This document shows positions 13,407 through 35,521 of a stretch of 38,194 bases of DNA, one piece after another (the stretch's first letter is position 1; each line of letters opens with the position of its first letter). The stretch comes from Gammaproteobacteria bacterium (lineage in GTDB: Bacteria; Pseudomonadota; Gammaproteobacteria; GCA-2400775): NCBI GenBank assembly GCA_016765075.1, contig JAESQP010000137.1, positions 1-38,194 on the forward strand, given 5' to 3'. The translations under genes were made by a program, and so were the position numbers. Under the pieces are notes generated by a model that was not told the DNA's origin, ran no database searches, and saw only the letters and a list, made by a program, of their open reading frames with translations.

Positions 13407-13459
13407 TGAAAAGTGAACTCCATATACATTGTGTTGTGTGTAGTCTATAAAATAGTTTG

Positions 13460-13484: not shown

Positions 13485-13626
13485 GGTGTCTAGTTTTAGC
13501 GGCATTATAGGCGCAATATTGAGATAGCGATGATGCTTTTCTATATAGCTTAAAGCACTGTGTTCAGATACCGATAGTTATACGAGTGTTTGGTTTCTCT
13601 TAACTGCGATTTACTGTGAACATTTG

Positions 13627-15763: not shown

Positions 15764-17122
15764 ATGGCCAAGGCCAAGCAGTACTTACTTATCGTCGATG
15801 ATGAAGAAGGCATCCAAAAGCAATTACGCTGGAGCTTTGATGGATATGAGCTTGTCTTTGCTGCTAATCGTGTAGAGGCCATTGCGCAGTTACGTCGTTT
15901 TGAACCTGTTGTTGTGACATTGGATCTTGGTTTGCCGCCTGATACTGCCGGCGCAAGCGAAGGTATTCTTGCTTTGGAAGAAATGCTGGCGCTTTCACCA
16001 CACACCAAAGTCATTGTGGTGACGGGTAATGATGATCGTGCTAATGCGCTTGAGTGTGTCAATAAAGGCGCTTATGACTTTTATCAAAAGCCCATTGATC
16101 CTGAGTTGTTGTCAATTATGGTGGCGCGTGCATTTCATGTGTCGGAGCTTGAGGGCGAAAATCGCAAACTCGCTAAACGTCACAACACCATGCGCTTGCC
16201 CGGTGTGATTGGATCCAGCCCGCAAATGCTCAGGGTATGTCGTGATATTGAGAAAATCGCCCAAGCGAATGTGGCGACCTTGTTGCTAGGAGAGAGTGGT
16301 ACCGGCAAGGAAGTGATTGCGCGTGCGCTGCATGAAATAAGTGACCGTAGCAATGAGCGGTTTGTCGCGATTAACTGTGCGGCTATTCCTGAAAATCTGT
16401 TGGAAAGCGAACTATTCGGCTATGAGAAAGGTGCGTTTACGGGTGCGACGAGGCAAAATATTGGCCGTATTGAGTATGCCAATGGTGGCACTCTATTTCT
16501 TGATGAAATTGGCGATTTATCACTTTCAATGCAAGTCAAATTATTGCGTTTTTTACAAGAGCGCACTATTGAGCGTGTTGGCGGACGCAAAGAGATTCCA
16601 CTCGATGTACGTGTTGTCTGCGCAACCCATCAAAACCTTAGCGAGTTAATTACTGATAGCCGCTTTCGTGAGGATCTTTATTACAGAATCAGTGAAATCA
16701 CCATTAATATTCCCCCTTTGCGTGATCGTGATGCCGATGTAGTCTTGCTGGCCAAAGCCATTATGGTGCGCAGCAAGCAGGAGCTTGGTAAGAAAACGAA
16801 ACCGAAGAGCTTCTCTAGGGAGGCTTTGGATGTTATTTCTGCTTATCCCTGGCCCGGTAATGTGCGTGAGCTAGAGAATGTTGTACGCCGTGCGGTACTG
16901 ATGTCTGAGGGGGCTCAAATCACGGTTGAGGATCTTGGCATAGAAGCCAATGCTGATACTAGACAACCGCTTAACCTTAAAGAAGTACGTGATCACGCAG
17001 AGCATGAAGCCCTGGTCAAAGCATTTGGCCTCTGTGAGGGTAATGTTTCGAGAATTTCTGAGCTGTTGGGTGTCAGCCGGCCGACACTGTATGATTTAAT
17101 GGGTAAGCATGGTATAAAGTAG
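15764..17122 (+). CDS. prsR: PEP-CTERM/exosortase-system sigma54-dependent response regulator PrsR
   Basis: This 452-residue NtrC-type activator has a receiver domain (about 1-125; acidic pocket DD12-13, phospho-acceptor Asp54 in TLDLGLPPD), an AAA+ sigma54-interaction domain with Walker A GESGTGKE (176-183) and the sigma54 contact loop GAFTGA (223-228), then a Fis-type helix-turn-helix (NVSRISELLGVSRPTLYDLM, about 427-446). The partner is PrsK, encoded just upstream. Known PrsR proteins switch on genes of the exosortase/exopolysaccharide system with RpoN. A sigma54-like site lies before epsL. The intact GAFTGA loop indicates a true activator. Translation may be tuned by a hairpin over its ribosome site. 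Confidence 0.94.
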   Translation: MAKAKQYLLIVDDEEGIQKQLRWSFDGYELVFAANRVEAIAQLRRFEPVVVTLDLGLPPDTAGASEGILALEEMLALSPHTKVIVVTGNDDRANALECVNKGAYDFYQKPIDPELLSIMVARAFHVSELEGENRKLAKRHNTMRLPGVIGSSPQMLRVCRDIEKIAQANVATLLLGESGTGKEVIARALHEISDRSNERFVAINCAAIPENLLESELFGYEKGAFTGATRQNIGRIEYANGGTLFLDEIGDLSLSMQVKLLRFLQERTIERVGGRKEIPLDVRVVCATHQNLSELITDSRFREDLYYRISEITINIPPLRDRDADVVLLAKAIMVRSKQELGKKTKPKSFSREALDVISAYPWPGNVRELENVVRRAVLMSEGAQITVEDLGIEANADTRQPLNLKEVRDHAEHEALVKAFGLCEGNVSRISELLGVSRPTLYDLMGKHGIK

Positions 17123-17223: not shown

Positions 17224-18372
17224 ATGTACGAGTCGTTTTATAACTTATCAGCCAAGCCATTTGCGTTAAACGCTGACCCACGGTTTTTTTTCGGTAGCCG
17301 TGGCCACAAGCGTGCTCAATCCTATCTGCAGTATGGCCTGACACAAGGCGAGGGTTTTATTGTCATTACCGGCGGTGTTGGCACAGGCAAAACCATGCTT
17401 GTGCGTAATCTATTCGCTGGTCTTGCTAAAGAAAACATTGTTGCTGCGCAGCTCGTTACGACACAGCTCGGTGCCGACGATATGCTGCGAATGATTGCCG
17501 CGTCTTATGGTTTGGCTCATGAAGGGTTAGGTAAGGCAACTCTACTTAAGAACCTGGAAACATTTTTAATTACGCGCGCACGCGAAGGCAAGCGCGTATT
17601 GTTAGTGATCGATGAAGTGCAGAATTTGCCGCTGAGTTCGTTAGAAGAGTTGCGCATGTTATCCAACTTTCAATTGTCTGGTAAAACTTTGTTACAGAGT
17701 TTCTTGTTAGGGCAAGCTGACTTCAAAGATACGCTACGTTCGCCGCAAATGGAGCAGCTGCGCCAGCGTGTGATTGCCGCTTATCATCTTAACCCATTGG
17801 GGGAGGACGAGACTCAGACCTATATTGAACATCGCCTGACCTTGGTAGGCTGGACTACAGACCCAGTGATTAGCGATGAAGCCTACGCTGCTGTTTATAA
17901 ATATACGAATGGTGTGCCGCGTTTGGTTAATCAGCTGTGCGACCGCTTACTGCTCTTTGGCTATCTAGAAGAGCTGCTGGCTATCGATATTGAACATGTT
18001 GATACGGTGGTTAAAGAATTACAGCAAGAGACCCCTGGCTCTCAATTTGGCGGCGATATTCATGATGAGCAAGACCAAGAGTTTATCCCCATAGAGCCTT
18101 CACAGGCGCCCTCATCACAGGCCAGGGGTGCATCTTCAGAACAGGTACGCACACCTAAGCGAAGCTTGAAAAAAGCTACGCGAGGTAGTAATGCGAAGTT
18201 AGCTAAGCATGCGACGATTACGAAACCAGACAGTAGCGAGGTTGGTCTCGCCAGTGATGAGGCAGTAAAGCGAATTACATTGCTTGAAAAGCGTGTGCAG
18301 TTGCTGGAAGAAAAAATGGATAGGCACATTACGGCCTTGCGTGATGCTTGCGAGGTTGTGATAGATGGTTAG
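17224..18372 (+). CDS. ExeA-like AAA ATPase of the exosortase/EPS locus
   Basis: This 382-residue protein opens with MYESFYNLSAKPFALNADPRF, typical of ExeA/GspA-like ATPases found beside exosortase genes. Walker A is GGVGTGKT (50-57) and Walker B is VLLVIDE (125-131). The AAA part ends near residue 270. It is followed by a low-complexity, charged linker rich in Ser, Gln and Lys and a short C-terminal heptad-like helix (about 345-375) that may form a coiled coil. No transmembrane segment is evident after the ATPase part, unlike GspA. The exact role in polymer or protein export is not known. It sits 101 bp after prsR, with AGAGAAG as ribosome site, and 118 bp before epsL. Confidence 0.85.
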   Translation: MYESFYNLSAKPFALNADPRFFFGSRGHKRAQSYLQYGLTQGEGFIVITGGVGTGKTMLVRNLFAGLAKENIVAAQLVTTQLGADDMLRMIAASYGLAHEGLGKATLLKNLETFLITRAREGKRVLLVIDEVQNLPLSSLEELRMLSNFQLSGKTLLQSFLLGQADFKDTLRSPQMEQLRQRVIAAYHLNPLGEDETQTYIEHRLTLVGWTTDPVISDEAYAAVYKYTNGVPRLVNQLCDRLLLFGYLEELLAIDIEHVDTVVKELQQETPGSQFGGDIHDEQDQEFIPIEPSQAPSSQARGASSEQVRTPKRSLKKATRGSNAKLAKHATITKPDSSEVGLASDEAVKRITLLEKRVQLLEEKMDRHITALRDACEVVIDG

Positions 18373-18490: not shown

Positions 18491-19651
18491 ATGAATAATT
18501 GGGTAGGGTTGGCGTGTATTAGCGCAGCTATATTGTCTTCTGTTACGGTTAATGCAGCAGATGAGAATTTTGATGTTTATGTGTTCACCAATGCTATTTA
18601 TGACGACAATGTATTTCGTGTAGCTAACAGTGCGGAGGCCTTGGCACAAAGTGGTACGACAACACGCTCTGACATAGAAACCACCTTTGGTGTGGGCGCC
18701 AATGTCAAAATTCCTGTTAGCCGCCAGCAGTTTAATGTTGATGCTGAATTGCGTCGTACGCACTTTAATCGTTTTGATCAGCTTGATAATAATAATGGCG
18801 AGTTGAAGGGTGAGTGGCAATGGGCCTACGCCAGTCGTGCCAGTGGCACCTTGGGTTATGAGTATGAGCGAGGGTTGACGGACTTCTTCGAATTCCAGTC
18901 TGCGAGTCGCGATACTGTCGTTGATCAAAACTTTTATGGCAGCGCGAAAATTCCAGTACATCCAAGGTGGACTGTAGTGCTGGGCAGTAATGCTCGTGAT
19001 GTGGGTTATGACGAACGCCCCGAGCTTGACCGGGATACGACTGCAATTTATGCAGAGGCTCTTTTTCAGACGCGAGCCAAAACCTTTGTTGGGGTTCGTT
19101 TGCAGGAAAATGAGACAAAATTTGATAATAACGGTCTCGTCAGTAATGATTTCGATGAAAGCCAATACAGTGTCGTTGCTCGCTGGAACGTAACAGGTAA
19201 GTCACGTTTTGCAGCTTCCCTGGGACGAACCAAACGAGATCCCAGAAACGCAGAAAGTGGTGAATTTTCAGGTGGAACAGGGCAAGTGGAATACCGGCAC
19301 ATCATCAGTGGTAAGACGCTTGTAGATTTTAAATTATTTCGCCAAACGTCGTTGGTGGATGAGATTGCCAGTCTTGTTGTCGCAGAAGGCGCAGCGATTG
19401 AGCCGCAATGGAAAATTTCTCCGAAGCTTGCTTTTCGTGGGGAGCTTCGCTATGAGGAGCGTGATTTTAGAGGCTCGACTAATAGCGGCCGGTCTGATGA
19501 TTTGCTATCTCTGCGTGCTCGTTTAGCATATAGATTGAACCGTGCTTTGACGCTTAACTTGGGTTTGGGTTATCAGACCCGAGATTCAAATGTTAGTGAT
19601 AGTGAATTTGACCAGACTAGGCTTAGTGCGGGGATCCGCTTCACGATCTAA
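18491..19651 (+). CDS. epsL: EpsL-like outer-membrane beta-barrel protein of the EPS export system
   Basis: This 386-residue protein has a cleavable signal peptide (hydrophobic core about 4-20, likely cut after VNA at 22). The rest is rich in alternating polar/aromatic strands with few hydrophobic helices, and ends in a C-terminal aromatic strand (LSAGIRFTI) expected of an outer-membrane barrel. The segment YDDNVFRVANSAEAL near the mature N-terminus resembles EpsL of Methylobacillus-type exopolysaccharide operons, and the following order epsE-epsF-epsG supports this. A TIGR03016-type exosortase-associated barrel is the main alternative. It probably forms or supports the outer-membrane exit for the polymer; no enzyme activity is expected. 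Confidence 0.75.
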   Translation: MNNWVGLACISAAILSSVTVNAADENFDVYVFTNAIYDDNVFRVANSAEALAQSGTTTRSDIETTFGVGANVKIPVSRQQFNVDAELRRTHFNRFDQLDNNNGELKGEWQWAYASRASGTLGYEYERGLTDFFEFQSASRDTVVDQNFYGSAKIPVHPRWTVVLGSNARDVGYDERPELDRDTTAIYAEALFQTRAKTFVGVRLQENETKFDNNGLVSNDFDESQYSVVARWNVTGKSRFAASLGRTKRDPRNAESGEFSGGTGQVEYRHIISGKTLVDFKLFRQTSLVDEIASLVVAEGAAIEPQWKISPKLAFRGELRYEERDFRGSTNSGRSDDLLSLRARLAYRLNRALTLNLGLGYQTRDSNVSDSEFDQTRLSAGIRFTI

Positions 19652-19668
19652 ATCATAGGAAAATAGCA

Positions 19669-19704
19669 TAAGCCAATTGGTTTTTTTACTATTTGTTTGG
19701 CTTA
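19669..19704 (+). promoter_or_regulatory. Inverted repeat between epsL and epsE
   Basis: Arms TAAGCCAA and TTGGCTTA pair perfectly over 8 bp around a 20-nt loop containing seven T residues; a further GC pair can form past a one-base bulge. It begins 18 nt after the epsL stop. No T-run follows the right arm, so it is not a classical terminator. It may be an attenuator or operator in the 211-bp gap before epsE. Confidence 0.35.
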
Positions 19705-19862
19705 GCGGGTTTTCCTTGTATCTTAATAAAGATATTGCCAGTGAACGAAATGAGCTGGCAAGTGCTCTTACTGTATATTCTGTTCATCGCCGGTTAAAGA
19801 ATGTCTGTTATCTTTCCGATAGGATGGTGGCGTGTCGTTTAATTGTTTAAGAGGGAAGGCTT

Positions 19863-20654
19863 GTGAGGACTTGGTACCAAATTATTTTCATCGGAATTTT
19901 TGTGTTCTGGGGAGTAACTGTATTTGCCGATACGCCTAAGGAATACCGACTTGGTATCGATGATACGGTTAAAATTACTGTTTTTCAGCAGCCAGATCTC
20001 ACCACTGTTTCACGCATAGACGCTTCGGGTAGTGTTACGTTCCCCTTGATAGGTGAGATTAGACTGGCTGGTTTAACCAAAGTGGAAGCAGAAAGAGCAA
20101 TATCGGGCTCTCTTAAGCAGGGCGGCTATCTGAAAAACCCTCAAGTATCTATTTTAGTTGAGCAATACCAAAGTGCCCAGGTTTCAGTATTGGGCTTTGT
20201 CAATAAACCTGGAAAATATCCAATCGAGCGTACAAGCTCGGTTATCGACATGCTGGCCAATGCTGGTGGACTGAGAGCCGAAGGTGGTGATGTGCTGCTT
20301 GTGGTGAGAGGGGCTGGTCGTAAGGCAAAGAGAATAGAGGTGGATTTGCTTAGATTTCAGCAAGGTGATTTAAGCCAGAATATTGAATTAAAGGCTGGCG
20401 ATTTAGTCTTAGTGCCAAGAATGGAAGAGTTCTATATTTACGGTGAAGTTAGGTCTGCAGGTATTTATAGGCTGCGGCGCGATATGACAGTAATGCAAGG
20501 GCTGTCCGTTGGTTCTGGGCTAACTGATCGAGGTTCGAGGAAACGTTTGGTGGTTAGCAGGCAGAAAGATGGCAAAGTGGCCGAGAAAAAAGTGGCGTTA
20601 GGGGATATATTGCAAGCTAATGATGTTATCTACGTTAAAGAAAGTATTTTTTAG
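19863..20654 (+). CDS. epsE: Polysaccharide export protein EpsE (Wza-like)
   Basis: This 263-residue export protein has an N-terminal signal peptide (cut near VFA, residue 22), a polysaccharide-export domain starting at YRLGIDDTVKITVFQQPDLT and continuing through FPLIGEIRLAGLTKVEAE, then SLBB-type repeats (VSVLGFVNKPGKYPIE and FYIYGEVRSAGIYRL). These proteins form the periplasmic/outer-membrane channel of Wzy-dependent export. There is no lipobox Cys, unlike E. coli Wza, which is usual for the EpsE subgroup; EpsL may supply the outer-membrane part. The start is GTG at 19863, directly supported by GAGGGAAGG at 19851-19859. epsF follows after 18 bp. Confidence 0.9.
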   Translation: MRTWYQIIFIGIFVFWGVTVFADTPKEYRLGIDDTVKITVFQQPDLTTVSRIDASGSVTFPLIGEIRLAGLTKVEAERAISGSLKQGGYLKNPQVSILVEQYQSAQVSVLGFVNKPGKYPIERTSSVIDMLANAGGLRAEGGDVLLVVRGAGRKAKRIEVDLLRFQQGDLSQNIELKAGDLVLVPRMEEFYIYGEVRSAGIYRLRRDMTVMQGLSVGSGLTDRGSRKRLVVSRQKDGKVAEKKVALGDILQANDVIYVKESIF

Positions 20655-20672
20655 GTTGGTTGAATTTTTAGT

Positions 20673-22196
20673 ATGAGTACTACAAAAGAGATAAATATAA
20701 ATCAATACTTGATGATATTTTTCGCCTATAAGCGGATAGTGATTGCCTTGGTGTTGTGCGCTTTGGCGGCAGGTATTTTTATATATTCTCAGTCTCCAAA
20801 GCTTTATTCCTCAACGGTATCGGTAAATTTTGAATTCTTTAACCCTACTAACCCGCTTGCAAGTGCAGGTGGCAACTTGGCTATGAGGAGCGATGAATCG
20901 GTTTACATAAATACTCAAATCGATTTGATTCAAAGTAAGCTGGTTGCGGAACAAGTTTTTAATGGTTTGTCTGTTAGGCAGCAGGAAAGACTGGAGTTTG
21001 CCTTAGATAAAGGTCAGCCGCTGCTTGGAGTGTATATTGGATCGGTCCTTGATTGGATAGAACAGTTGATGGAACTATTCGCTCGTAAGGATGAAGATAG
21101 TGGTGATCTTCTATATGAGAGTACATCTTCAAATGATGAGGATGTTTTGGCTGAGAGAGATGTGGATTCTACATCTTGGCAGGCGAGATCTATGCTGAGA
21201 AGGTTGGCGGTTGAAAACGTTTTTGGCACGAGAATTGTCAATATTAGTTATGCATCCGCCGATTCTGAATTGGCTGCATTAATTGCTAATAGATTTTCAG
21301 CGGCATACATTGATACGCATCTGAAATTGCTACGCAGCCCAGCGGAGGGTTCCAAAATATGGTTAGAAGGACAGTTAAGTACCCTAAAAGCAGGTTTGGA
21401 AAGAGCACAGGCGACGTTAACACAATATAAAACTTCTGAGAGTATCGTTATTTCGTCCGAAAGGGTGGGTTTGGAATCAACAAAATTAGAAAAGATGAGT
21501 GCTGAATTGGTTACTGTACAAAGTGATCTTAGGCGGGCGGAGGTCACAAGAAGACAGCTGGACAAAATTAAACAGCAAGGTAAATCATTGTTGTCACTTG
21601 CGGCCATTTCAGAGAACGCTGATATACGGTCTATCCGCACAATAATACGAGAGTTAGAAGGTAGGATTGCGGAAAGTTCATCTGATTTAGGGGCGAACCA
21701 TCCCAGGTTACGTCAACTGAGAAGCGAATTAAGCCAAGTAAAGGGAAAATTGCAAAGGGAGCTGAAGACGATATCCAATTTAATTGCGAATAGAGAGAGC
21801 TTGTTGAAGACAAGATATCAATCGCTTTCTGCAAGTACCGGTAAGCAGAAAAAAATAGTGCTCGGCTTGCAACAGCAGTTTGATCAAATCAGTGTGCTTG
21901 AAGCTGAGGTGGAAAGGAGAAAGGGCGCCTATGATTCGATTCTAGGACAGGCGAATACTACAAATTTACAAGCAGCGGTTGAGGAAGCAAACGTTAATGT
22001 TATTGATAAAGCGCGTGCTACTTCTAATTCATTTAGCCCTAAAATATCTAAGATATTATTATTTTCTTTGGCGATAGCATTTGCCTTGTCTATTTTTATC
22101 GTTGTCGTCGCAGAATTTTTTTGGCGAAAAGTAAGGTCACCTGAAGACATATATCAGGAATTTGATTTTAAGGTTTTGGGCGTTTTGCCCAGATAA
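20673..22196 (+). CDS. epsF: Chain-length determinant protein EpsF (Wzz/PCP family)
   Basis: This 507-residue inner-membrane co-polymerase has one transmembrane helix near the N-terminus (about 20-39) and one near the C-terminus (about 458-481), with a long periplasmic region between. Much of that region (about 230-430) is heptad-rich coiled coil, as in Wzz/GumC proteins. The C-terminal tail VRSPEDIYQEFDFKVLGVLPR is cytoplasmic and typical of partners of a separate tyrosine-kinase-like ATPase, here EpsG. It controls polymer length and links the Wzy polymerase to the EpsE channel. It is followed after 23 bp by epsG. An unusual acidic stretch (about 135-165) interrupts the first periplasmic part. 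Confidence 0.9.
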   Translation: MSTTKEININQYLMIFFAYKRIVIALVLCALAAGIFIYSQSPKLYSSTVSVNFEFFNPTNPLASAGGNLAMRSDESVYINTQIDLIQSKLVAEQVFNGLSVRQQERLEFALDKGQPLLGVYIGSVLDWIEQLMELFARKDEDSGDLLYESTSSNDEDVLAERDVDSTSWQARSMLRRLAVENVFGTRIVNISYASADSELAALIANRFSAAYIDTHLKLLRSPAEGSKIWLEGQLSTLKAGLERAQATLTQYKTSESIVISSERVGLESTKLEKMSAELVTVQSDLRRAEVTRRQLDKIKQQGKSLLSLAAISENADIRSIRTIIRELEGRIAESSSDLGANHPRLRQLRSELSQVKGKLQRELKTISNLIANRESLLKTRYQSLSASTGKQKKIVLGLQQQFDQISVLEAEVERRKGAYDSILGQANTTNLQAAVEEANVNVIDKARATSNSFSPKISKILLFSLAIAFALSIFIVVVAEFFWRKVRSPEDIYQEFDFKVLGVLPR

Positions 22197-22219
22197 ACAA
22201 GTAGGTTTGTAAATAGACA

Positions 22220-23215
22220 ATGTCGATGGATACCATACAAAGAGCGTTACAAAAGCAGCAGGAAAAAGCGCCTGATGAAAATGTATATCCGATTCGCAAT
22301 GATGTTGATTCAGTTGTCACGGATGAGTTTACAGAAAATCCTGCTATTGAAGAGCTTGATTTAGAAGTACAACATGCTGCTGAAAATAGTATTGGTGAAA
22401 TTTTACTTGAGGCAAAGCGGCTATCTGAAGGTGATATTGAGCTTATCCGGCAAGTTCAACAGGACGAAGATATATATTTTGGTGAGGCAGCTTTGCAGCT
22501 GCGATTGTTGACAAAAGAAGATATAAAATTTGCCCTATGTCGTCAATATGGTTATACCTATATTAATGATGCTGATTGTACGATATCAGAAGAATTGGTT
22601 ACGTTATATAAACCGTTCCACAAAAAATCCGAGGTTTTACGTCTAGTACGTAGCCAACTAATCGTTGGCGCAATGTCAGAAGGTAAACGGATCTTTGCGG
22701 TAGTAAGCCCAGGCGCACAGGAAGGTAAAACATATATAGCGTCTAACCTTGCGGTCACTATGGCGCAGCTGGGAAAGCGAACACTTTTGATAGATGCCAA
22801 TTTTCGTACTCCGCGAATCGATAAGATATTCTCGGTCAATGCACGGATAGGGTTGTCATCAATGTTAGCAGGTCGAGTGAGCAGAGAAAACCTGGCTAAA
22901 TTACCGTATGCAGTCTCTACAGTCCCAAATCTTTACGTTCTTCCGACTGGGGCATTGCCTCCACATCCAGGAGAGTTATTAAGTTCTCATGTGCTACCAA
23001 AAATCCTTGGCGAGATATCCACTTACTATGATGTAATTTTTCTAGACACTCCCCCGGGAGGATATTTGGGAGATGTACAGACAGTAGCGCACGCGGCTGG
23101 TCAGGCAATAGTAGTTCTGCGAAAAAACCAGTCTTCTATGTATGATAGTAAAAAGTTAGTGGAGGCACTGCATCAAGCGAAGGTGGATATTATTGGAACC
23201 GTGTTTAATCATTAA
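22220..23215 (+). CDS. epsG: EpsG-type BY-kinase-like ATPase partner of EpsF
   Basis: This 331-residue cytosolic P-loop protein has an N-terminal region (about 50-120; IGEILLEAKRLSEGDIE...GEAALQLRLLTKEDIKFALCRQYGYTYI) resembling the MshE/GspE N-terminal fold, then a BY-kinase domain. The Walker A is SPGAQEGKT (163-171), the A' motif is TLLIDANFRTPRID, and Walker B is VIFLDTPPGG. The domain order matches EpsG proteins of exosortase-linked EPS operons. It should bind the EpsF cytoplasmic tail and drive cycles of assembly. The C-terminus ends at TVFNH with no Tyr cluster, so the autophosphorylated tail of Wzc is absent. It ends the epsEFG run; 285 bp of AT-rich DNA without a gene follows. Confidence 0.88.
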   Translation: MSMDTIQRALQKQQEKAPDENVYPIRNDVDSVVTDEFTENPAIEELDLEVQHAAENSIGEILLEAKRLSEGDIELIRQVQQDEDIYFGEAALQLRLLTKEDIKFALCRQYGYTYINDADCTISEELVTLYKPFHKKSEVLRLVRSQLIVGAMSEGKRIFAVVSPGAQEGKTYIASNLAVTMAQLGKRTLLIDANFRTPRIDKIFSVNARIGLSSMLAGRVSRENLAKLPYAVSTVPNLYVLPTGALPPHPGELLSSHVLPKILGEISTYYDVIFLDTPPGGYLGDVQTVAHAAGQAIVVLRKNQSSMYDSKKLVEALHQAKVDIIGTVFNH

Positions 23216-23500
23216 TTAAAGACCTTTCGGCATCCTGTCACCAAGAGACGATAAAGTATGCTGTAGTTAGCTTGATACGCCACGCATTTATATGAATAGT
23301 GTGATGACTAAATACAGCTTACGAAATTATTTTCTTGCTTTGAAATTATGGCGAGAGCTTGTTGTATAAAAAATGTATGGGTTTTCACATACAGCAAAAA
23401 TATTGATGCAGCGTGTCTATTAATTTTTTATAGAAAAAAATTGATGTTATTTTTTGACTTTATCATTTTTAATGATCATATGAATGGTGTCAGGTAAAAT

Positions 23501-24763
23501 ATGAAGATACCTTTCGATGCTAAAATAATCACGCATTACGTCTTAGTCTACCTGCTGATTTTTACTAGTGGTGCGCTAGTTTTTAAATCGCTAAATTCCA
23601 ATTTAATATTGATTTTCGCAACGTCTATGGCGGCACTTGCCTGGTGGGTGTATTCCGCGCGTGAAATTAACATAAAATTTTTAATCTATTTGTCTGTGAC
23701 TGTTATTTTACTGTTAATACTGTCGTCCTATACCCAGGGTGGCATACCTGTCTCTGGGCTAGTGGCGACAGTTATAAAATTTATGTTTGTATATTTTGTT
23801 ATTGCTACAGTCAGAGAGAAATTTTTAGGAGTATATACTAGGTTAGTAATATTTCTTGCAGCGGTGAGCATTATTGGTTATGCATCAGACCAGTTTTCGT
23901 TGCTCAGTGGTCTCGTAGGTTTGTTTCCCGCGCACCAATGGGTGGGCCCCACGGGAATAGAATCTGGATACGAGGGCATGTTATACATGTTTCGTTTTAA
24001 TGTGCATTTGGATCGAAATAACTCTATTTTCTTTGAGCCGGGCGCGTATCAATTTTTTCTTAATGCTGCGATTTTCATATTATTTTTTTATGACTCGGGG
24101 TTGAAGAAAAAAGAAAAAATGGTAGGTTTATCTATATTGCTTGTGACTATCGCAACCACGCAATCGACTACTGGCTATATGACGACAGCACTTATTATGT
24201 TGGGTGCATTTCTGTACAGCCAGACAATATCAAATGGGGTCAAATTGGCGGCTGTTATCATGGCAGTATTGATGTTGGTCTTGCTGGCCCCTCTGATTCA
24301 ATCGGTGATTTTTGATAAAATAGAGCGTTATTCCTCTATAGAATCTATTGGTGATAAGCAAGATTTACGTAGTTTCGAATTGTTGGTGGATAAGGAGATA
24401 ATTAAAAAATACCCATTTGGGCTTGGCTATGAAGGTTATCGTAAAGCATTTTCGGTCATTGGAAAAACACGTCTGGGGCGCGCCTCATCTAATGGCATAA
24501 CAAAACTGGCGGCGATATTTGGTTTGCCATTTACGATATTTTACTTAGGGTCAATGTTGTGGGCGTTCTTAGTCTACAATAAGAATATTGTCGTATCATT
24601 TATTGGTTTTGTGAGTATTGTTTTGTTTTTGTATTCTGAGGCTTATTATTTGTTTTCTCCTATCATGCTGGCGATTATTGTTGGCATGTTTGTAGTTCGA
24701 AAAAAGGAAAACACACTGAGTACTAAGGAGCGAAAAGCGAAGTCTGTTGCTGATTATCGATGA
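23501..24763 (+). CDS. Wzy-like O-antigen/exopolysaccharide polymerase
   Basis: This 420-residue integral membrane protein has about ten to twelve hydrophobic helices spread over the whole length and a longer periplasmic-type loop (about 145-185) carrying HLDRNNSIFFEPGAYQFF. That loop pattern, with RN and EPGxY/F, recurs in Wzy/O-antigen-ligase-type polymerases. A second hydrophilic stretch with YPFGLGYEGYRKAF (about 305-322) also fits. It would join repeat units at the periplasmic face of the inner membrane, with EpsF setting the length. Sequence divergence in this family prevents naming the linkage. The gene is AT-rich and stands alone, with 285 bp before and 259 bp after it. Confidence 0.85.
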   Translation: MKIPFDAKIITHYVLVYLLIFTSGALVFKSLNSNLILIFATSMAALAWWVYSAREINIKFLIYLSVTVILLLILSSYTQGGIPVSGLVATVIKFMFVYFVIATVREKFLGVYTRLVIFLAAVSIIGYASDQFSLLSGLVGLFPAHQWVGPTGIESGYEGMLYMFRFNVHLDRNNSIFFEPGAYQFFLNAAIFILFFYDSGLKKKEKMVGLSILLVTIATTQSTTGYMTTALIMLGAFLYSQTISNGVKLAAVIMAVLMLVLLAPLIQSVIFDKIERYSSIESIGDKQDLRSFELLVDKEIIKKYPFGLGYEGYRKAFSVIGKTRLGRASSNGITKLAAIFGLPFTIFYLGSMLWAFLVYNKNIVVSFIGFVSIVLFLYSEAYYLFSPIMLAIIVGMFVVRKKENTLSTKERKAKSVADYR

Positions 24764-24961
24764 CTGCTGCTATTTTAATGATTGTCATTGTATGTGATGG
24801 AGCACGGTAAACAATACGCAACCAATTTATTGGCTGGTATAGATTTATTTGGCTGATAGAAGTGTGGCGAGCTGGGTTAGGCGCGCCCTAAGGCTTCAGT
24901 TAATGTAGTGTCAGCTTGGGACTATTTAAGCTCAATCGAAAAAATGCAGAGCGAATTATCT

Positions 24962-24980
24962 CGTATACACAAAATATACG
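24962..24980. promoter_or_regulatory. Inverted repeat upstream of the first GT4 gene
   Basis: CGTATA and TATACG flank a 7-nt A-rich spacer about 43 bp upstream of the glycosyltransferase start. The dyad resembles a small operator. A second dyad (TTAGG/CCTAA, 24877-24891) lies 70 bp further upstream. Neither is assigned to a known regulator. Confidence 0.3.
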
Positions 24981-25022
24981 GTCTTTTCAATTGAATTGGT
25001 TGGCAAATAATAGGTTCATGGT

Positions 25023-26270
25023 ATGAAAATATTACATGTCAGTAATGCAGCGCAGCTTGGCGGCGCGGGAATCGCTGCGCATAGATTGCATAGAGGGTTG
25101 ATGCGGCTTAACTCAGCATCGATGATGTTAGTGAATAAGCGGCGCCATAAAGAAAGTTCTATTGTTGGTGCCGTAGGTACCTTTAACAAAATAATGTCAA
25201 AATTGACACCGTTACTAGACAGGGTGCCAGGACACTTTTCAAGCATTGATATGGACAGGGTTTCCGCATCCTGGGTTCCAGACAGGTTGGTTAATCGAAT
25301 AAAAAAGATTTCTCCGGATGTTTTGAATCTTCATTGGGTAAATGATGGTTTTATGTCAATTGAAACCTTGGCAAAGTTCGATCAACCAGTCGTCTGGACA
25401 TTGCATGATATGTGGGCATTTTCTGGGGGTGAGCATTATGTTGGTAATAGCGTTAGATATAAGGAAGGATATTCAAAGAAAAATCGACCGTTAGATGAAA
25501 AAAAGTTAGATATTCATCGGTGGATTTGGGCAAGAAAAAAGAAGTCTTGGTCTACGTTGGGAGAAAAAATAGTAATAGCCGCTCCAAGTAAATGGATGGC
25601 TCGTTGTGCCAGTGAGAGCGCGCTATTCAATAATTTTAGGGTAGAAGTTTTGCCTAACGGTATCGATCACGAAAGATATCACCCGGTGGACCATACTATT
25701 GCCAGGAAAATTCTAGGGCTACCAGAAGATAAAAAATTGATTCTATTTGGCGCCGGATCAGCAACAAGTGATAAAAGAAAAGGTTATCACTTGTTAGTTG
25801 ATGCCATTTCAAAACTTGAGGCGTGGGGAACTGCAACTGACTATGAGTTGATCGTATTTGGAGCATCTTCTGGGGAGAGTAAGTTTTCCATGAAAACCCA
25901 TTATCTCGGCATACTGGCCGATGAAATCAGTCTAGCGCTTGTGTATGCTGCTGCCGATGTTTTTGTGGCGCCGTCGCTTGAAGATAATTTGCCCAATACA
26001 GTGCTTGAGTCTCTTGCTTGCGGCACGCCTGTTGTGGCATTTAATACTGGTGGTATGCCTGATATGATTTTGCACAAAACTAATGGTTATCTTGCCAGCG
26101 CGTTTGATGTGGATGATTTAGCGAGAGGGCTGTTTTGGGTGTTAGAAAATAATAAACGTTGGGATGGTTTGTCCGCTGAAGCTCGCGATACAGTCCTTCA
26201 GTCGTTTACTCTTGAGCAGTCGGCGAAAAGATATTTGAGCTTGTATCAAGAGTTATTAGAACGTTTTTGA
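25023..26270 (+). CDS. Glycosyltransferase family 4 protein (WcaC-like)
   Basis: This 415-residue cytosolic or membrane-associated GT-B glycosyltransferase has an N-terminal acceptor domain starting MKILHVSNAAQLGGAGIAAHRL, with HWVNDGFMSIETL and WTLHDMWAFSGGEHY, and a C-terminal donor domain with LPNGIDHERY, LILFGAGSATSDKRKGYHLL, then the nucleotide-sugar motif SLEDNLPNTVLESLACGTPVVAF (about 318-340). These match WcaC-like GT4 enzymes of exopolysaccharide clusters. The donor sugar cannot be read from sequence. The start is ATG at 25023. algD follows after 55 bp. Confidence 0.88.
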   Translation: MKILHVSNAAQLGGAGIAAHRLHRGLMRLNSASMMLVNKRRHKESSIVGAVGTFNKIMSKLTPLLDRVPGHFSSIDMDRVSASWVPDRLVNRIKKISPDVLNLHWVNDGFMSIETLAKFDQPVVWTLHDMWAFSGGEHYVGNSVRYKEGYSKKNRPLDEKKLDIHRWIWARKKKSWSTLGEKIVIAAPSKWMARCASESALFNNFRVEVLPNGIDHERYHPVDHTIARKILGLPEDKKLILFGAGSATSDKRKGYHLLVDAISKLEAWGTATDYELIVFGASSGESKFSMKTHYLGILADEISLALVYAAADVFVAPSLEDNLPNTVLESLACGTPVVAFNTGGMPDMILHKTNGYLASAFDVDDLARGLFWVLENNKRWDGLSAEARDTVLQSFTLEQSAKRYLSLYQELLERF

Positions 26271-26325
26271 AGAATATAAGTTCTATGAGATTAGGCAACG
26301 ATAGAGTGTTAAACGAGGAACAAAC

Positions 26326-27639
26326 ATGAAAATCAGTATATTTGGTCTTGGCTATGTTGGCGCTGTCTCGGCAGGTTGCTTGGCGAAAGAGGGGCACACA
26401 GTGATTGGTGTAGATCCCTACCAACCAAAAGTTGACCTCATTAACAGCGGGCAAACTCCTGTTATCGAGGATGAAATTGGCGCTATAGTTTCTAATGCGG
26501 TTAAATCGGGCTCGCTGCGAGCTACGACCGATGTTCAAAATGCTGTTAACAATAGTGAAATGTCCTTTATTTGTGTTGGTACTCCGAGTTTATTAAACGG
26601 TGGTCTGGATCTAAAATACGTCAGAAATGTGTGCGAACAAATCGGTGAGGCGATTCGGCAAAAAGACGGGTTTCATGTCGTGGTTGCGCGTAGCACCATG
26701 TTACCCGGCACGATGAGTGATGTGGTGATACCGGTACTGGAGGAAGCCTCGGGCAAAAAGGCAGGTGTTGATTTTGGTGTGTGCAATAACCCGGAGTTTC
26801 TGCGCGAAGGCACTGCCGTCTATGATTTCTATCATCCACCGAAAACAGTCATTGGTGAAACGGATTCGAAGAGCGGTGATTTGTTGGCAAGTATCTATGC
26901 GAAACTTGATGCGCCATTGATAAAAACAGATGTGCGTACGGCTGAAATGGTCAAGTACAGTGACAATGTATGGCATGCACTGAAAGTGGGGTTTGCCAAC
27001 GAGATCGGTAATATATCGAAAGCGGTTGGACTCGATGGCCACGTAGTCATGGAAATTTTTTGCCAAGATACCAAACTAAACCTATCTCCCTATTATATGA
27101 AACCCGGTTTTGCCTTTGGTGGCTCATGTTTGCCTAAAGATGTGCGAGCCTTGACCTATAAGGCTCATAGTCTCGATGTCGATGTGCCTATTCTCGATTC
27201 AATTATGATTAGTAATAAATATCAGGTCGAAAGAGGCCTGAATATGATTACAGAAAAAGGCAATAAGCAAATCGGCATTCTCGGCTTTAGCTTCAAGGCA
27301 GGAACCGACGACTTACGGGAAAGCCCAATCGTTGAGCTAATAGAGCGATTATTGGGCAAAGGATACGATTTAAAGCTCTATGATAAAAACGTTAATTTGG
27401 CAAAACTGGTTGGTGCCAATCGAGATTACATCATGAATCAAATTCCACATATTTCAAAATTGATGGTGGGCAGCATTGATGATGTGCTTGAGCATGGTAG
27501 GACGATTGTGATTGGTAATGGCGATAAGGACTTTACCAGCGTTATGGATCGACTCAAGGATGACCAGGTTATTGTTGATCTTGTTCGTATCACCCAGGAT
27601 AGAAGCAAGGAAGGTCGTTATGACGGCATATGCTGGTAG
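26326..27639 (+). CDS. algD: GDP-mannose 6-dehydrogenase AlgD
   Basis: This 437-residue NAD-dependent enzyme oxidises GDP-mannose to GDP-mannuronate, the committed precursor of alginate. From memory it follows P. aeruginosa AlgD nearly throughout: ISIFGLGYVGAV at the N-terminus, FICVGTPS, STMLPGT, GVDFGVCNNPEFLREGTA, YYMKPGFAFGGSCLPKD with the catalytic Cys at residue 268 (same number as in Pseudomonas), FSFKAGTDDLRESP, and a C-terminus ending GICW. This separates it from the UDP-glucose dehydrogenase at 12078. The start is ATG at 26326. The downstream GT4 starts inside its last codons (20-bp overlap), implying coupled translation. No Alg8/Alg44-type synthase is nearby, so the mannuronate probably goes into a Wzy-built polymer. 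Confidence 0.93.
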   Translation: MKISIFGLGYVGAVSAGCLAKEGHTVIGVDPYQPKVDLINSGQTPVIEDEIGAIVSNAVKSGSLRATTDVQNAVNNSEMSFICVGTPSLLNGGLDLKYVRNVCEQIGEAIRQKDGFHVVVARSTMLPGTMSDVVIPVLEEASGKKAGVDFGVCNNPEFLREGTAVYDFYHPPKTVIGETDSKSGDLLASIYAKLDAPLIKTDVRTAEMVKYSDNVWHALKVGFANEIGNISKAVGLDGHVVMEIFCQDTKLNLSPYYMKPGFAFGGSCLPKDVRALTYKAHSLDVDVPILDSIMISNKYQVERGLNMITEKGNKQIGILGFSFKAGTDDLRESPIVELIERLLGKGYDLKLYDKNVNLAKLVGANRDYIMNQIPHISKLMVGSIDDVLEHGRTIVIGNGDKDFTSVMDRLKDDQVIVDLVRITQDRSKEGRYDGICW

Positions 27640-28828
27640 TGCCCGACGTGTACTTATCATAGTTGAGAACCTGCCGTCGCCGTTTGATCGTCGTGTCTGG
27701 CAAGAGGCGACTACGCTCAATGAGGCAGGTTACGAGGTGTCAATTATTTGCCCGGTCGGCAAAGGCTATGAAGAAAAATATGAGCTGATCGATGGGGTGC
27801 ATATTTATCGGCATAGCTTGCCTCTTGAAGCAGAGGGTGCGCTGGGTTATTTGCTGGAGTATTCAGTTGCCTTGTTCTGGCAGTTTACGCTTGCTTGTCG
27901 CGTGCTGTTGACACGTGGCTTTGACGTTATTCATGCTTGCAACCCGCCCGATAATATTTTCTTAATAGGTGGTTTCTTTAAACTGTTTGGAAAAAAGTTT
28001 TTATTCGACCATCATGATATCAACCCCGAGCTGTATGAAGCTAAATTTGGTCGTCGTGATTTGTTTTATAAAATCATGCTGGCGTGGGAGAAGTGGTCGT
28101 TTAAAACGGCAGATGTTTCTATCGCTACTAATGAATCTTATAAACGCATAGCCATAGAGCGTGGTGGTATGCCGGAGGATCGAGTTTTTGTCGTTCGTAG
28201 TGGGCCAAAACTGGATCGCCTAAAAATTATGCCACCTGTTGAATCGCTCAAGCAAGGAAGAAAGTTTCTGGTTGGCTATGTCGGGGTAATGGGTGCGCAA
28301 GAGGGCATAGATTATCTCTTACGAGCAGCACAGCACATTGTCTACGAAATAGGTCGCAAAGACGTGCATTTTGGTTTGGTTGGTGGCGGCACTTCACTGA
28401 ATGAGATGAAAGCCTATGCCGAGAAACTTAATATCTCGGAGTATGTGACGTTTACGGGGCGGGTGCCCGATGAAGAAATGCTGCAAATGCTAAATACGGC
28501 AGATGTGTGTGTGAACCCTGATGTTGCCAATGAAATGAACGACAAGTCTACAATGAACAAGATTATGGAGTACATGGCATTGAGCAAACCTATTGTTCAG
28601 TTTGATCTGACAGAGGGTCGATATTCAGCGCAGGGGGCGTCGTTGTATGCATTGAAAAATGACGACGAGGATATGGCAAGAAAAATAGTTGAACTGCTCG
28701 ATAACCCAAAGCAAAGGGAGACCATGGGGCTCTTGGGAAGAGAGCGAATTGAAAAAACGTTATCTTGGGAACATGAAGCACCTAAGCTTTTAAATGCCTA
28801 TGAGACGCTGTTTAACGGGTTAAATTAG
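27620..28828 (+). CDS. Glycosyltransferase family 4 protein
   Basis: This 402-residue GT-B transferase begins, after the overlap with algD, with VLIIVENLPSPFDRRVWQEATTL, a common opening in GT4 enzymes of exosortase/EPS loci. A hydrophobic patch near 75-90 may tether it to the membrane. Donor-domain features are VGYVGVMGAQEGIDYLL, FGLVGGG, and VNPDVANEMNDKSTMNKIMEYMALSKPIVQFD. The start is ATG at 27620, with GGAAGG just upstream; longer in-frame starts lie inside algD and lack family similarity. The tight overlap suggests it acts on the product AlgD supplies, perhaps as a mannuronosyl- or related transferase; the donor is an inference. It ends the local operon. Confidence 0.88.
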   Translation: MTAYAGSARRVLIIVENLPSPFDRRVWQEATTLNEAGYEVSIICPVGKGYEEKYELIDGVHIYRHSLPLEAEGALGYLLEYSVALFWQFTLACRVLLTRGFDVIHACNPPDNIFLIGGFFKLFGKKFLFDHHDINPELYEAKFGRRDLFYKIMLAWEKWSFKTADVSIATNESYKRIAIERGGMPEDRVFVVRSGPKLDRLKIMPPVESLKQGRKFLVGYVGVMGAQEGIDYLLRAAQHIVYEIGRKDVHFGLVGGGTSLNEMKAYAEKLNISEYVTFTGRVPDEEMLQMLNTADVCVNPDVANEMNDKSTMNKIMEYMALSKPIVQFDLTEGRYSAQGASLYALKNDDEDMARKIVELLDNPKQRETMGLLGRERIEKTLSWEHEAPKLLNAYETLFNGLN

Positions 28829-29254
28829 ATTATTTATAGTATGGCTTGCTAATGACTTTATAGTTGGCTGTGCATGGGCTTATTTTTTAGCAGGTTTGCT
28901 CGTAGTACTTGAAGGGCATGTTGGGTTTGGCCGTACCGCGTTATGCCATTATGAAACTGTAGTTCAGCAATCTCTAATTCTTGCCGTTCCTATTTGGTTG
29001 GCTGTCTGCCAACACATTTTGATAGCCACATCACACTTTTCACAACAGCCAAAATACATAGCTTTGCCTTGGCTTAAACTTGAGGCTAGACCTAAAGCTG
29101 CTCACATTCAAGCTAGATGGCCTGTTTGTGCGCTAATCGTTACTTTTCAATCCCAGTAAAATACGCTTCTCTGAGTTGTGAACTCAATCACCGTTCTTAA
29201 TCGATTTTAGAGACAGAATCCAACCCATATTTACAGCACTCCACGGTGATTGGT
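28829..29254. other. Gene-free gap before the polysaccharide-lyase lipoprotein
   Basis: About 425 bp. An open frame (28896-29159) lies here, but its translation is rich in Gln, His, Cys and Trp, has no ribosome site and no family resemblance, so it is not called. No terminator with a T-run was seen after the upstream GT4, and no clear -35/-10 or -24/-12 pair was found for the lipoprotein gene. Confidence 0.5.
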
Positions 29255-31477
29255 ATGGGTCTACGTTTACTTTCTTCAGTTTTGATTTTTCTGATATCGA
29301 TTGCTGTTACTTCTTGCGGTGGCGGTGGCGGTGGCGGTGGCGGTGGCGGTGGCGGTAATAATAATGCATCGCAAGAATCAACGGTTACTATTCTCGGATC
29401 GGGCATTAAAGGCATTCTCGCCAATGCGACGGTTTCAATATACGAGCTCAATATATCACTGCCATTGTCCTATGATCCAGCGCTCCCTCTTGCGTCAGGC
29501 GTGACAGATTCCGTGGGCAGGCCTGCTTCTTTGGAGATTCCAACAAGCATATCTAGACCCCTAGTGTTAGTCGTTGACGGTGCGAGCAGTATCGATCTTA
29601 ACAGCAACCAAACTCCTGTCATTACGAATTTAACAAGCATCTTTACAATTCAAGATGCTTTGGCGGGTAATCCAATTTTCGCTACCCCGTATACAACGAT
29701 TGCGCATGAAATGGTAAAGCTCAACTCAACAAGCAGCTCTTCCAACACGGCCTTTCATGATAATTTTGCCGCTGCGATAACGGATGTTGGTATGGCGCTT
29801 GGTTTCGGCACTGAAACAAGTGTAAATTTTCTTACGACACCTGCTGTATTAAGTGAGACTACGTTAAGCCAAGCGCAACAAGGTGCGATTATTCAGCATC
29901 GTGCAGCTATTGAGGCGCTAGCCGCAATCATCGTCGAACTCAGAAATGCCTCGGGCAATACGCTATCTGCAGGGGATGTTGTGGTAAAGCTTGCAGATGA
30001 CCTTTTTAATGATGGCCAGATTGATGGTGACAGTGGGCTCGATATATCTGCTATTCCTGCGAATGTCGAAAACCTATATGTTCCAGATACGCAATTTCGA
30101 ATCAAAGATATTAGCCTCATTCTTGAGTCAGAGCGTCAATACACAGGGGTGAATACAAGCTCTGTTAGCTCCTTATCACCAACCCTAATGGCGCCTACAC
30201 TATCATCAGATAATAGTAGACCTGTAGTAGATAACAATGGTGGTTCTACCGGAGCCAATACAGAGGTTCCAGAGCCCGTTATTTCTTTTTCCACAAGTGC
30301 CGCCAACTTTGGTCGTATTTCAATGGGTGCTAGCGCTGATATGTCAGTCATATTGACCAATATTGGTGGTGCGCCACTGGTCATCACCAATATTTCAACA
30401 GCAGCACAACAGAGCTTTACCCAAACAAACGATTGTAATGGCTTTGTGCCAAGCGGTCAGAGTTGCGTAGTAAACATTACCTTTTCCCCTGCTGGGTTGG
30501 GCAACAGGAGTGATGTGCTCTTAGTCAATGGTGATGGGGCAGCAACACGAACCGTCAGTTTGCTAGGCGTGGGTGATAGTGGAGTGTTGCCAGAAAACAC
30601 TGTTTTGGACGTTGATTTTGAGCGCCTGAGCCGAGGTGCATATCGGGAATCAGACTTACGATCAGATTTTAACGTAGGTGTAAACGGTTATAACGATACC
30701 GTTCATGGACCTAATGCTAACTCTATGGATATTATTGCAGACCCAGCGAATTCAGGCCGTGGTAATGTTTTACGTGTCTTGCACCGAGAAGGCAGAGGCG
30801 GCAATAGCGTTCGAGCCGGTGGTTTTCGGTTTCGTGCAGATTTTCCTGCCACAGAAGAATATTATTTTGCCTACGATGCTTACTTCCCCAATGGCTGGTT
30901 TCAACCGTTACAACACAAAATGCCTGCAATGATGAGCACTACCAACTTGCTTAATGCGTCGCATTTGCATAATGTGAGGCCGCACGAAACGACAATACCG
31001 GGGTTCAATACTCGAATGCAAACTTTTTCAAATGCTGCATATGGTCGCGGTGATGGGAGCTTTTCCAGTATTGTTTATGACAAGGAGAGCGTGCAACAGC
31101 CTCGTTGGGCTAATTACATAAGTCCAACAGATACTGACTTCAGGACTCAAAGAGAAAACTTGGCCGGACAATATATTATGCCGCGTGGCCGCTGGGTTAA
31201 AATAGAACAGCGTGTAAAACTCAATACGGTCAATGTCAGAGACGGGCTTATGCAGATATGGATGGATGGGGAGCTAATTTATGATCGAACACATTTATGG
31301 TTGGCAGATACAAACTACCCAGGAAACTTGGTATCCAATGCCAACAGAAAGATCGATGGGGTTTTTATGTATAGCTATTATGGTGGCAACCCCTCTGATC
31401 CGAGGAATCGACCACCTGCTGATAATTACCACTATTATGATAACTTTATCGTGTCTGCTTCGCCGATCACACATTAG
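29255..31477 (+). CDS. Lipoprotein with choice-of-anchor D domain and PL14-like polysaccharide-lyase domain
   Basis: This 740-residue exported protein has a lipoprotein signal (hydrophobic 5-19, lipobox VTSC, Cys21), then 13 consecutive glycines as a spacer, an N-terminal alpha/beta region (about 45-340), an ASH/choice-of-anchor-D-type Ig-like domain (about 342-442; NFGRISMGASADMSVILTN...CVVNITFSP), and a C-terminal jelly-roll domain (about 450-740). The last has YYFAYDAYFPNGW, QHKMPAMM and YSYYGGNP...YHYYDNFIVS, the layout of alginate/glucuronan-type lyases (PL14/PL20-like). It likely cleaves uronate polymer at the cell surface; substrate is inferred from neighbouring algD. The start is ATG 29255 (GTG 29246 possible). 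A close paralog ends at 37923 on the other strand. Confidence 0.72.
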   Translation: MGLRLLSSVLIFLISIAVTSCGGGGGGGGGGGGGNNNASQESTVTILGSGIKGILANATVSIYELNISLPLSYDPALPLASGVTDSVGRPASLEIPTSISRPLVLVVDGASSIDLNSNQTPVITNLTSIFTIQDALAGNPIFATPYTTIAHEMVKLNSTSSSSNTAFHDNFAAAITDVGMALGFGTETSVNFLTTPAVLSETTLSQAQQGAIIQHRAAIEALAAIIVELRNASGNTLSAGDVVVKLADDLFNDGQIDGDSGLDISAIPANVENLYVPDTQFRIKDISLILESERQYTGVNTSSVSSLSPTLMAPTLSSDNSRPVVDNNGGSTGANTEVPEPVISFSTSAANFGRISMGASADMSVILTNIGGAPLVITNISTAAQQSFTQTNDCNGFVPSGQSCVVNITFSPAGLGNRSDVLLVNGDGAATRTVSLLGVGDSGVLPENTVLDVDFERLSRGAYRESDLRSDFNVGVNGYNDTVHGPNANSMDIIADPANSGRGNVLRVLHREGRGGNSVRAGGFRFRADFPATEEYYFAYDAYFPNGWFQPLQHKMPAMMSTTNLLNASHLHNVRPHETTIPGFNTRMQTFSNAAYGRGDGSFSSIVYDKESVQQPRWANYISPTDTDFRTQRENLAGQYIMPRGRWVKIEQRVKLNTVNVRDGLMQIWMDGELIYDRTHLWLADTNYPGNLVSNANRKIDGVFMYSYYGGNPSDPRNRPPADNYHYYDNFIVSASPITH
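29318..29356 (+). repeat. Hexanucleotide GGTGGC repeat encoding polyglycine
   Basis: Six and a half perfect copies of GGTGGC encode 13 glycines right after the lipobox cysteine. Gain or loss of whole units keeps the frame and only changes linker length. It is the most repetitive tract in the window. Confidence 0.95.
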
Positions 31478-32073
31478 GCTCTGTTGATAATTGGCTTTAA
31501 GGAGGGGGATTATTAAGGGTAAACTCGTCATATTGCAGGTTCTACCCCAACAATAGTAATGCCCCGGCTCATGCATCACGGATGTGCTTTGTGCCGAAGC
31601 CAAAAAAATTATGTTGCAACAGCAGAGCAGGCAAAGGCTAGAATAGTGACTCGTTAAGAGGTCAGCTTCGAGGGAAAAAATCGGGCTCCCATAGCCCAAA
31701 AAAACAACTTGAGGATTAGCAATGATGACATGGACTGGCGTTTATACAAACATTGCTATCTCGCAGAGAATATCTTTTCGAGGCTTAAATACTTTTAAGA
31801 AATTGCAACAAGATACGATAAATTGAAACGAAATCATCAAGTCATACTGACTTAGACTGTGTGGCTTTATAGGGCTACCAATATGAATGATCAATACTTC
31901 TGTAGACAATATTTTTTGTACATCTAGCGCTATCGTCGTAGGTTGCAAACATTGAGATTATAAATTTTCACATATGAGTACAAAGGCCATGAGGGATGCG
32001 CAATAATTGTGGATGTGTAGCAAATTTAGCGCTAGACTGCGCCCTAAATGATTGGGGCGCAGGGCACAGCAAT
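31478..32073. other. Gap holding a decayed insertion-sequence remnant
   Basis: About 595 bp between the lyase lipoprotein and the CapK-like gene. Its middle contains a broken IS5-type transposase tail (31670-31870, separate entry). The flanks show no intact gene. I could not find matching terminal inverted repeats or a target duplication, so the insertion boundaries are lost or too diverged to see. The first 26 codons of a longer frame for the CapK-like gene (from 31996) also fall here. Confidence 0.6.
31670..31870 (+). pseudogene. Relic of an IS5-family transposase C-terminus
   Basis: Read in the frame of base 31733, the DNA encodes YKHCYLAENIFSRLKYF, then a TAA stop (31796-31798), then EIATRYDKLKRNHQV and a TAG stop (31853-31855). 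The pair (Y-x-x-R/H-x-x-x-E-N-x-F-x-R-L-K) and (R-I/E-A-T-R-Y-D-K-L) is the conserved C-terminal DDE-domain ending of IS5/IS427-type transposases, where the Glu is the last catalytic acid. Upstream, GKNRAPI resembles the Arg/Lys-rich segment that precedes it. Two stops and no N-terminal part show that this is dead. It marks past mobile-element activity in the polysaccharide locus. Confidence 0.7.
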
Positions 32074-35508: not shown

Positions 35509-35521
35509 TGGGGCTGGTGTG

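Follow-up and report, generated by a model that had tools for sequence, protein, structure and literature searches.

The alginate operons of Pseudomonas and Azotobacter follow the order algD-alg8-44-KEGXLIJFA, and the DNA analysed here shares with them the first committed enzyme, the GDP-mannose 6-dehydrogenase AlgD, at 55-58% identity to the Pseudomonas proteins. This DNA (the window, 38,194 nucleotides) is the entire contig JAESQP010000137.1 (C137) of a gammaproteobacterial draft genome (G000, assembly GCA_016765075.1; 2.0 Mb in 163 contigs, 95.6% complete). It differs from the alginate operon in having no gene for the synthase Alg8, and its algD overlaps a gene for a family 4 glycosyltransferase, GT4b, within a Wza/Wzz/Wzc-type locus. 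We interpret it as a Wza/Wzz/Wzy-type exopolysaccharide locus with a recurring mannuronate cassette, in which AlgD would make GDP-mannuronate and GT4b would insert the sugar into a lipid-linked repeat unit, and we give this reading a probability of about 0.62.

Other described systems resemble the locus in part. The XrtA/XrtB PEP-CTERM exopolysaccharide loci (PMC1569441) have EpsL/E/F/G-like genes, PrsK, PrsR and an XrtA-type ATPase in common with the window, but no exosortase was detected in G000 and the EpsL, EpsF and EpsG of the window fall below their family cut-offs; the founding paper mentions neither mannuronate nor GDP-mannose. The promonan pathway of Sphingomonas LM7 (PMC11340318) is an alphaproteobacterial exopolysaccharide cluster with a uronate polymer, yet its uronate is glucuronic acid, and the paper mentions neither AlgD nor mannuronate. 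Rhizobium viscosum makes a heteropolysaccharide of 4-linked galactose, glucose and mannuronic acid that was chemically characterised in the 1960s (PMC9823382). It is known by chemistry to be a mannuronate-containing heteropolysaccharide, the kind of polymer predicted for the window; no description of its genes was found in the open-licence literature searched. The same literature yielded no description of AlgD in a Wzy or exosortase system or of an AlgD-GT4b cassette, in line with a preliminary description of the window, which knew of no such combination as a described system. Wzy-type exopolysaccharide synthesis is known; the AlgD-fed mannuronate step is what we rate as new.

AlgD and its pairing with GT4b

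The window AlgD has 437 residues, of which 1-437 align to residues 1-436 of the Pseudomonas aeruginosa GDP-mannose 6-dehydrogenase (1mfz) with an E value of 8e-169, compared with 1e-69 for the best UDP-glucose dehydrogenase match. It carries the AlgD-type KLN(L/I)S..Y..PG motif and retains Cys268 (in GGSCLPKD) and the GICW end, as the preliminary description had stated in calling it a full AlgD. By these sequence features the gene is a true AlgD and not a Ugd or WbpA. A tree of 74 AlgDs, rooted on Ugd and weakly supported at its deep forks, puts the Pseudomonas alginate AlgDs in a separate clade (support 100/99) and the window AlgD among AlgDs linked to GT4b, not with another family of nucleotide-sugar dehydrogenases. 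Nested inside this GT4b-linked clade are two AlgDs, 69-70% identical to that of the window, that stand beside alg44-algL-alg8 (loci L057 and L164). AlgDs of the clade thus serve alginate synthases too, which argues that its members make GDP-mannuronate. These two loci (L057, 810-6348; L164, 8843-14675) have the order alg44, alginate lyase, alg8, algD, with Alg8 36-38% identical to that of Pseudomonas, and by sequence they are an independent alginate operon lineage, far from Pseudomonas. In a further locus (L160, genome G268), an AlgD just 45% identical to that of the window stands beside a GT4b at 69-70% identity.

The longest open reading frame of GT4b starts at a TTG at 27512, and conservation begins near an ATG at 27620; from this ATG the gene overlaps the 3' end of algD by 20 nucleotides, so the overlap noted earlier is confirmed. 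The pairing recurs far beyond the window. We compared 103 AlgD loci (80 named loci plus loci from sampled genomes): 44 have GT4b, 44 have alg8, none has both and 15 have neither. GT4b is at most 1 kb from AlgD in 39 of the 44 GT4b loci. Among 369 genomes of the class, searched with E thresholds of 1e-100 for GT4b and 1e-110 for AlgD, GT4b occurs in 19, AlgD in 28 and both in 18. The hypergeometric probability of this co-occurrence is 1.5e-22, or 2e-20 without the genus of the window; since the genomes are related to each other, these optimistic values are guides and not exact.

Outside the class, in a phylum sample, GT4b at 55% identity or more lies directly beside an AlgD-like gene in all seven cases, and the best 11 plasmid matches (at least 53%) all adjoin an AlgD-like gene, judged by position. 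The pair spans Alpha-, Beta- and Gammaproteobacteria, Nitrospirota, Mycobacterium and Deinococcus, with Oxalobacteraceae, Accumulibacter, Silvimonas and Rhizobiaceae among its named carriers. Seen in dozens of genomes, the pairing is more than chance. In conservation GT4b equals AlgD (70% versus 65% median pairwise identity, 39 loci). No other glycosyltransferase accompanies AlgD from phylum to phylum; GT4a and GT2 vary between loci. This is expected for an enzyme that uses the product of AlgD and points to GT4b as the mannuronate transferase, short of proof.

The predicted GT-B model of GT4b (predicted local distance difference test, pLDDT, 90.8) matches GDP-mannose enzymes such as PimB' as well as UDP-sugar enzymes, so the fold does not point to one donor. 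The EX7E motif of GT4 enzymes was dropped as a guide to specificity, as the position of the first Glu is not invariant in the family.

Two mycobacterial AlgD-GT4b pairs (L052 and L055; ENV421 and M. sphagni ENV482) group with Betaproteobacteria in the tree. This may reflect horizontal transfer into an actinobacterium, or contamination. On a 60-kb plasmid of Rhodobacteraceae SC52 (L193, 10557-14572), a phosphomannomutase gene (GDP-mannose supply) lies directly 3' of the pair.

Gene content, export and regulation

The window starts with housekeeping genes (S-adenosylmethionine cycle, glycolysis) upstream of a minus-strand ugd. Beyond ugd the order is prsK-prsR-ATPase-epsL-epsE-epsF-epsG, a hydrophobic protein at the place of Wzy, GT4a, algD and GT4b; a secreted PL14-like protein, a CapK-like protein, HepII, GT2, a split GT4 and the end of a second PL14-like gene at the contig edge follow. 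The features are:

12078..13505, minus strand: Ugd, UDP-glucose 6-dehydrogenase (TuaD-like); NDP-sugDHase TIGR03026, 474 bits; role in the locus uncertain
13624..15714, plus strand: PrsK histidine kinase; TIGR02916, 542 bits (cut-off 300)
15764..17122, plus strand: PrsR sigma-54 response regulator; TIGR02915, 714 bits (cut-off 503)
17224..18372, plus strand: XrtA/PEP-CTERM-associated ATPase; TIGR03015, 374 bits (cut-off 324.5)
18491..19651, plus strand: EpsL-like outer membrane protein; TIGR03014, 236 bits (below the cut-off of 275)
19863..20654, plus strand: EpsE, Wza-type export protein; TIGR03028, 277 bits (cut-off 262.7); PF02563
20673..22196, plus strand: EpsF-like (Wzz-type) chain-length protein; TIGR03017, 240 bits (below the cut-off of 423)
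22220..23215, plus strand: EpsG-like tyrosine autokinase; TIGR03029, 273 bits (below the cut-off of 314)
23501..24763, plus strand: candidate Wzy polymerase, 420 residues, by position; about nine hydrophobic segments in a crude scan; no family match
25023..26270, plus strand: GT4a glycosyltransferase; PF00534/PF13692; kept in the same-genus loci L035 and L042
26326..27639, plus strand: AlgD, GDP-mannose 6-dehydrogenase; full-length 1mfz match; tree
27620..28828, plus strand: GT4b, predicted GDP-mannuronate transferase; Pfam GT4 domains; co-occurrence with AlgD; GT-B model
29246..31477, plus strand: secreted PL14-like protein (PF21294, E 2e-11) with an Ig-like (choice-of-anchor D) domain (PF22544, E 3e-13)
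31996..33402, plus strand: CapK/AMP-ligase-like protein; NF045666, 50 bits; PF00501 weak
33487..35508, plus strand: HepII, heparinase II/III fold, putative uronate lyase or C5-epimerase, no signal peptide; PF07940, E 2e-49; PF16889, E 3e-21
35462..36397, plus strand: GT2 glycosyltransferase; PF00535, E 5e-15
36435..37498, plus strand: GT4, split by a frameshift within a run of A; N- and C-terminal halves read in two frames
37923..38192, minus strand: second PL14-like protein, C-terminal part cut by the contig end; 90 codons much like the end of the 29246-31477 product

Matches to PF02563, GNVR, AAA_31 and NCBIfam models show that the locus encodes Wza-, Wzz- and Wzc-type proteins. Of the epsL-E-F-G series named in the preliminary description the genes are there (18491-23215), and EpsE exceeds its NCBIfam cut-off while the other three do not. 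Its Wzy-like polymerase is a candidate by position and hydrophobicity. No Wzx flippase was found within the window, the part of the genome searched for it. Elsewhere in G000 there are genes for an initiating polyprenyl glycosylphosphotransferase (C114:5137-6543; Bac_transf and CoA_binding_3) and for a GMP/PMI enzyme (ManC-type).

Export genes accompany the cassette in other genomes as well. Wza (PF02563) occurs in 31 of 33 GT4b genomes, and in G000, G001, G040, G075, G136, G268 and G302 it and the cassette are no more than about 30 kb apart. The same-genus locus L042 has epsL-E-F-G, two sulfotransferase-family genes, Wzy_C, GT2, algD, GT4b and PL14-like genes. In Shinella one stretch holds a flippase, AlgD-GT4b-HepII, an O-antigen ligase family protein and GumC; in R. 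rhizoryzae one stretch holds GumC, VpsF and dehydrogenase-GT4b-HepII.

Three regulatory and biosynthetic claims of the preliminary description gained no support from the analysis. An exosortase-type locus is not supported: PF09721 finds no exosortase (EpsH) in G000, with one control genome positive. PF07589 detects no PEP-CTERM protein in G000, but equally none in any control genome, so this negative carries no information. Control by PrsK/PrsR is not supported either, as a scan of the window for sigma-54 -24/-12 sites gave 12 matches against 7.3 expected by chance and no good intergenic site. Finally, a contribution of glucuronate by Ugd is not shown; the divergent ugd lies 13 kb from algD on its upstream side, and the conserved cassette does not include it.

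Several smaller observations concern the 3' part. The frameshift in the split GT4 falls in a run of nine A and is either an assembly error or a pseudogene, and the interval 31478-31995, between the PL14-like and CapK-like genes, resembles a decayed transposase remnant. Two PL14-like secreted proteins end the locus here and likewise in L042 (14031-16193 and 17469-19463); such paired proteins may be cognate lyases of the polymer. The sulfotransferase-family genes of L042 (6173-7174 and 13142-13855) suggest that the polymer of that related locus is sulfated.

Competing explanations

Could the locus belong to an ordinary alginate system, with its synthase encoded in the 4% of the genome that the draft lacks? 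The identity of its AlgD to Pseudomonas AlgDs and the 163-contig state of the draft would allow this. However, a search with the P. segetis Alg8 (threshold 1e-30) found no homologue in the window or the rest of G000, while the identical search was positive in nine other genomes and detected alg8 adjoining AlgD in four of the same sample (G006, G038, G195 and G371). The same-genus genome G001 also carries AlgD without Alg8, the window algD lies within an exopolysaccharide export locus, and GT4b and alg8 occur together in none of the 103 AlgD loci. We regard a hidden alginate system as close to negligible. The absence of a synthase claimed in the preliminary description is borne out across the 95.6%-complete genome, and the alg8 set beside the locus that it named as a refuting outcome did not appear. 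PF16822 found no AlgX/AlgJ acetylation protein in the genome, yet none in any control genome either, and this negative is likewise uninformative. An AlgD homologue drifted to a different substrate, leaving a polymer free of mannuronate, is highly improbable: Arg259 of P. aeruginosa AlgD is indeed Lys in the window, but Lys259 also occurs in AlgDs of alg8-type loci (L011, L012; loci J038, J006), alg8-linked members are nested in the clade, and the stretch KLN(L/I)S..Y..PG..FGGSCLPKD is kept in 40 of 44 GT4b-linked AlgDs and absent in Ugd. Nor do we favour an ordinary methanolan-type PEP-CTERM exosortase locus with AlgD as an accessory sugar gene of no special meaning. PrsK, PrsR, the XrtA-type ATPase and EpsE do all exceed their NCBIfam cut-offs; with no exosortase found in the genome, and with AlgD-GT4b in many loci that have different export genes and regulators, we consider this improbable.

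A more serious possibility, though still an unlikely one, is that AlgD feeds GDP-mannuronate to a Wzy-type unit whose user is GT4a, GT2 or the split GT4, while GT4b takes another donor such as GDP-mannose. The mixed donors of the nearest solved GT4 relatives leave room for this, as does the lone genome of the class with GT4b and no AlgD (G170); against it stands the constancy of GT4b, and of no other glycosyltransferase, beside AlgD across phyla.

The interpretation of the window as a mannuronate cassette in a Wzy-type locus has its own difficulties, and the following observations weigh against it. The G170 locus that houses GT4b (L162, 8950-10215; 57%) is complete for epsEFG, Wzy, Wzx and the initiating transferase but lacks AlgD, so mannuronate need not be the sugar of GT4b in every case. 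In G346, AlgD and GT4b are 11 kb apart. Outside the class, none of five divergent GT4b homologues at 43-54% identity is beside an AlgD-like gene. Several Alphaproteobacteria pair GT4b with a dehydrogenase that shares only 40-43% identity with AlgD and has no GICW tail; this enzyme still scores higher with AlgD than with Ugd, but its substrate is less sure. The candidate Wzy has no Pfam or NCBIfam match and no similar protein in other loci. Wza is missing from the two mycobacteria among the GT4b genomes, and in many drafts Wza and the cassette lie on different contigs. The functions of GT4b and HepII and the polymer itself are predictions. Overall, the comparative data strongly support the assembly of a mannuronate heteropolysaccharide by the Wzy route, as the preliminary description had proposed; the Wzy protein itself remains a candidate.

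HepII, the proposed pathway and its meaning

HepII adjoins AlgD-GT4b in many loci, either 5' of AlgD or 3' of GT4b; the window copy is 5.8 kb downstream of the pair. Its counterparts in plasmid records are annotated as 'alginate lyase family protein'. For the HepII model (pLDDT 85.8) the first match is heparinase III, followed by the PL15/PL17 alginate lyases, and human dermatan sulfate epimerase matches as well, so the heparinase II/III fold accommodates an epimerase besides lyases. All 13 orthologues compared keep His238, Tyr291 and His452, which a phmmer alignment pairs with the His, Tyr and His conserved in heparinase III, residues that we take to be catalytic. With PL12 heparinase III, the PL17/PL15 lyases and the epimerase HepII shares the fold and these residues, but at 12-17% identity and without a signal peptide. 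A start resembling a signal peptide is absent from all 20 orthologues compared (12-residue hydropathy at most 1.63, versus 2.2-2.8 in the secreted proteins of the window), and the idea that HepII is a secreted cognate lyase was dropped for this reason. A role in biosynthesis, in the cytoplasm, is likelier than extracellular degradation. As a lead only, a cytoplasmic protein of this fold within a biosynthetic cassette suggests that HepII modifies the lipid-linked unit, possibly by C5 epimerisation, instead of degrading the polymer.

In the proposed pathway, the ManC-type enzyme, whose gene lies outside the window, would supply GDP-mannose, and AlgD would oxidise this to GDP-mannuronate. GT4b, the product of the gene that overlaps algD, would add mannuronate to the undecaprenyl-diphosphate-linked repeat unit as this grows in the cytoplasm, where HepII, the frequent third member of the cassette, may act on the uronate residue as a C5-epimerase or lyase. 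The repeat unit would then be flipped by a flippase that we infer but did not locate, polymerised by the candidate Wzy and exported via the EpsE/F/G system. The product would not be alginate but a heteropolysaccharide whose repeat contains mannuronate or the epimer of mannuronate. Of this scheme, computation establishes what AlgD is, that no Alg8 was found, that the cassette exists and recurs, and that export genes are present; the other steps are predictions. A bolder extension, which we hold only as a long shot, is that HepII-AlgD-GT4b is a mobile cross-phylum mannuronate cassette, that GT4b founds a family of GDP-mannuronate transferases and that HepII is a cytoplasmic C5-epimerase turning lipid-linked mannuronate into guluronate before polymerisation. 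In alginate, epimerisation comes after polymerisation, in the periplasm.

AlgD is commonly taken as a mark of alginate, yet of the AlgD genes whose partner could be assigned here, half belong to another kind of system. Annotating 'alginate' from algD alone is therefore unsafe, for example in Accumulibacter, Janthinobacterium and rhizobia. The cassette supplies a specific candidate mannuronosyltransferase that does not belong to the Alg8 family, and it opens a genetic approach to mannuronate heteropolymers, for instance the R. viscosum polymer. Its recurrence over several phyla predicts that mannuronic acid is widely incorporated into polymers other than alginate.

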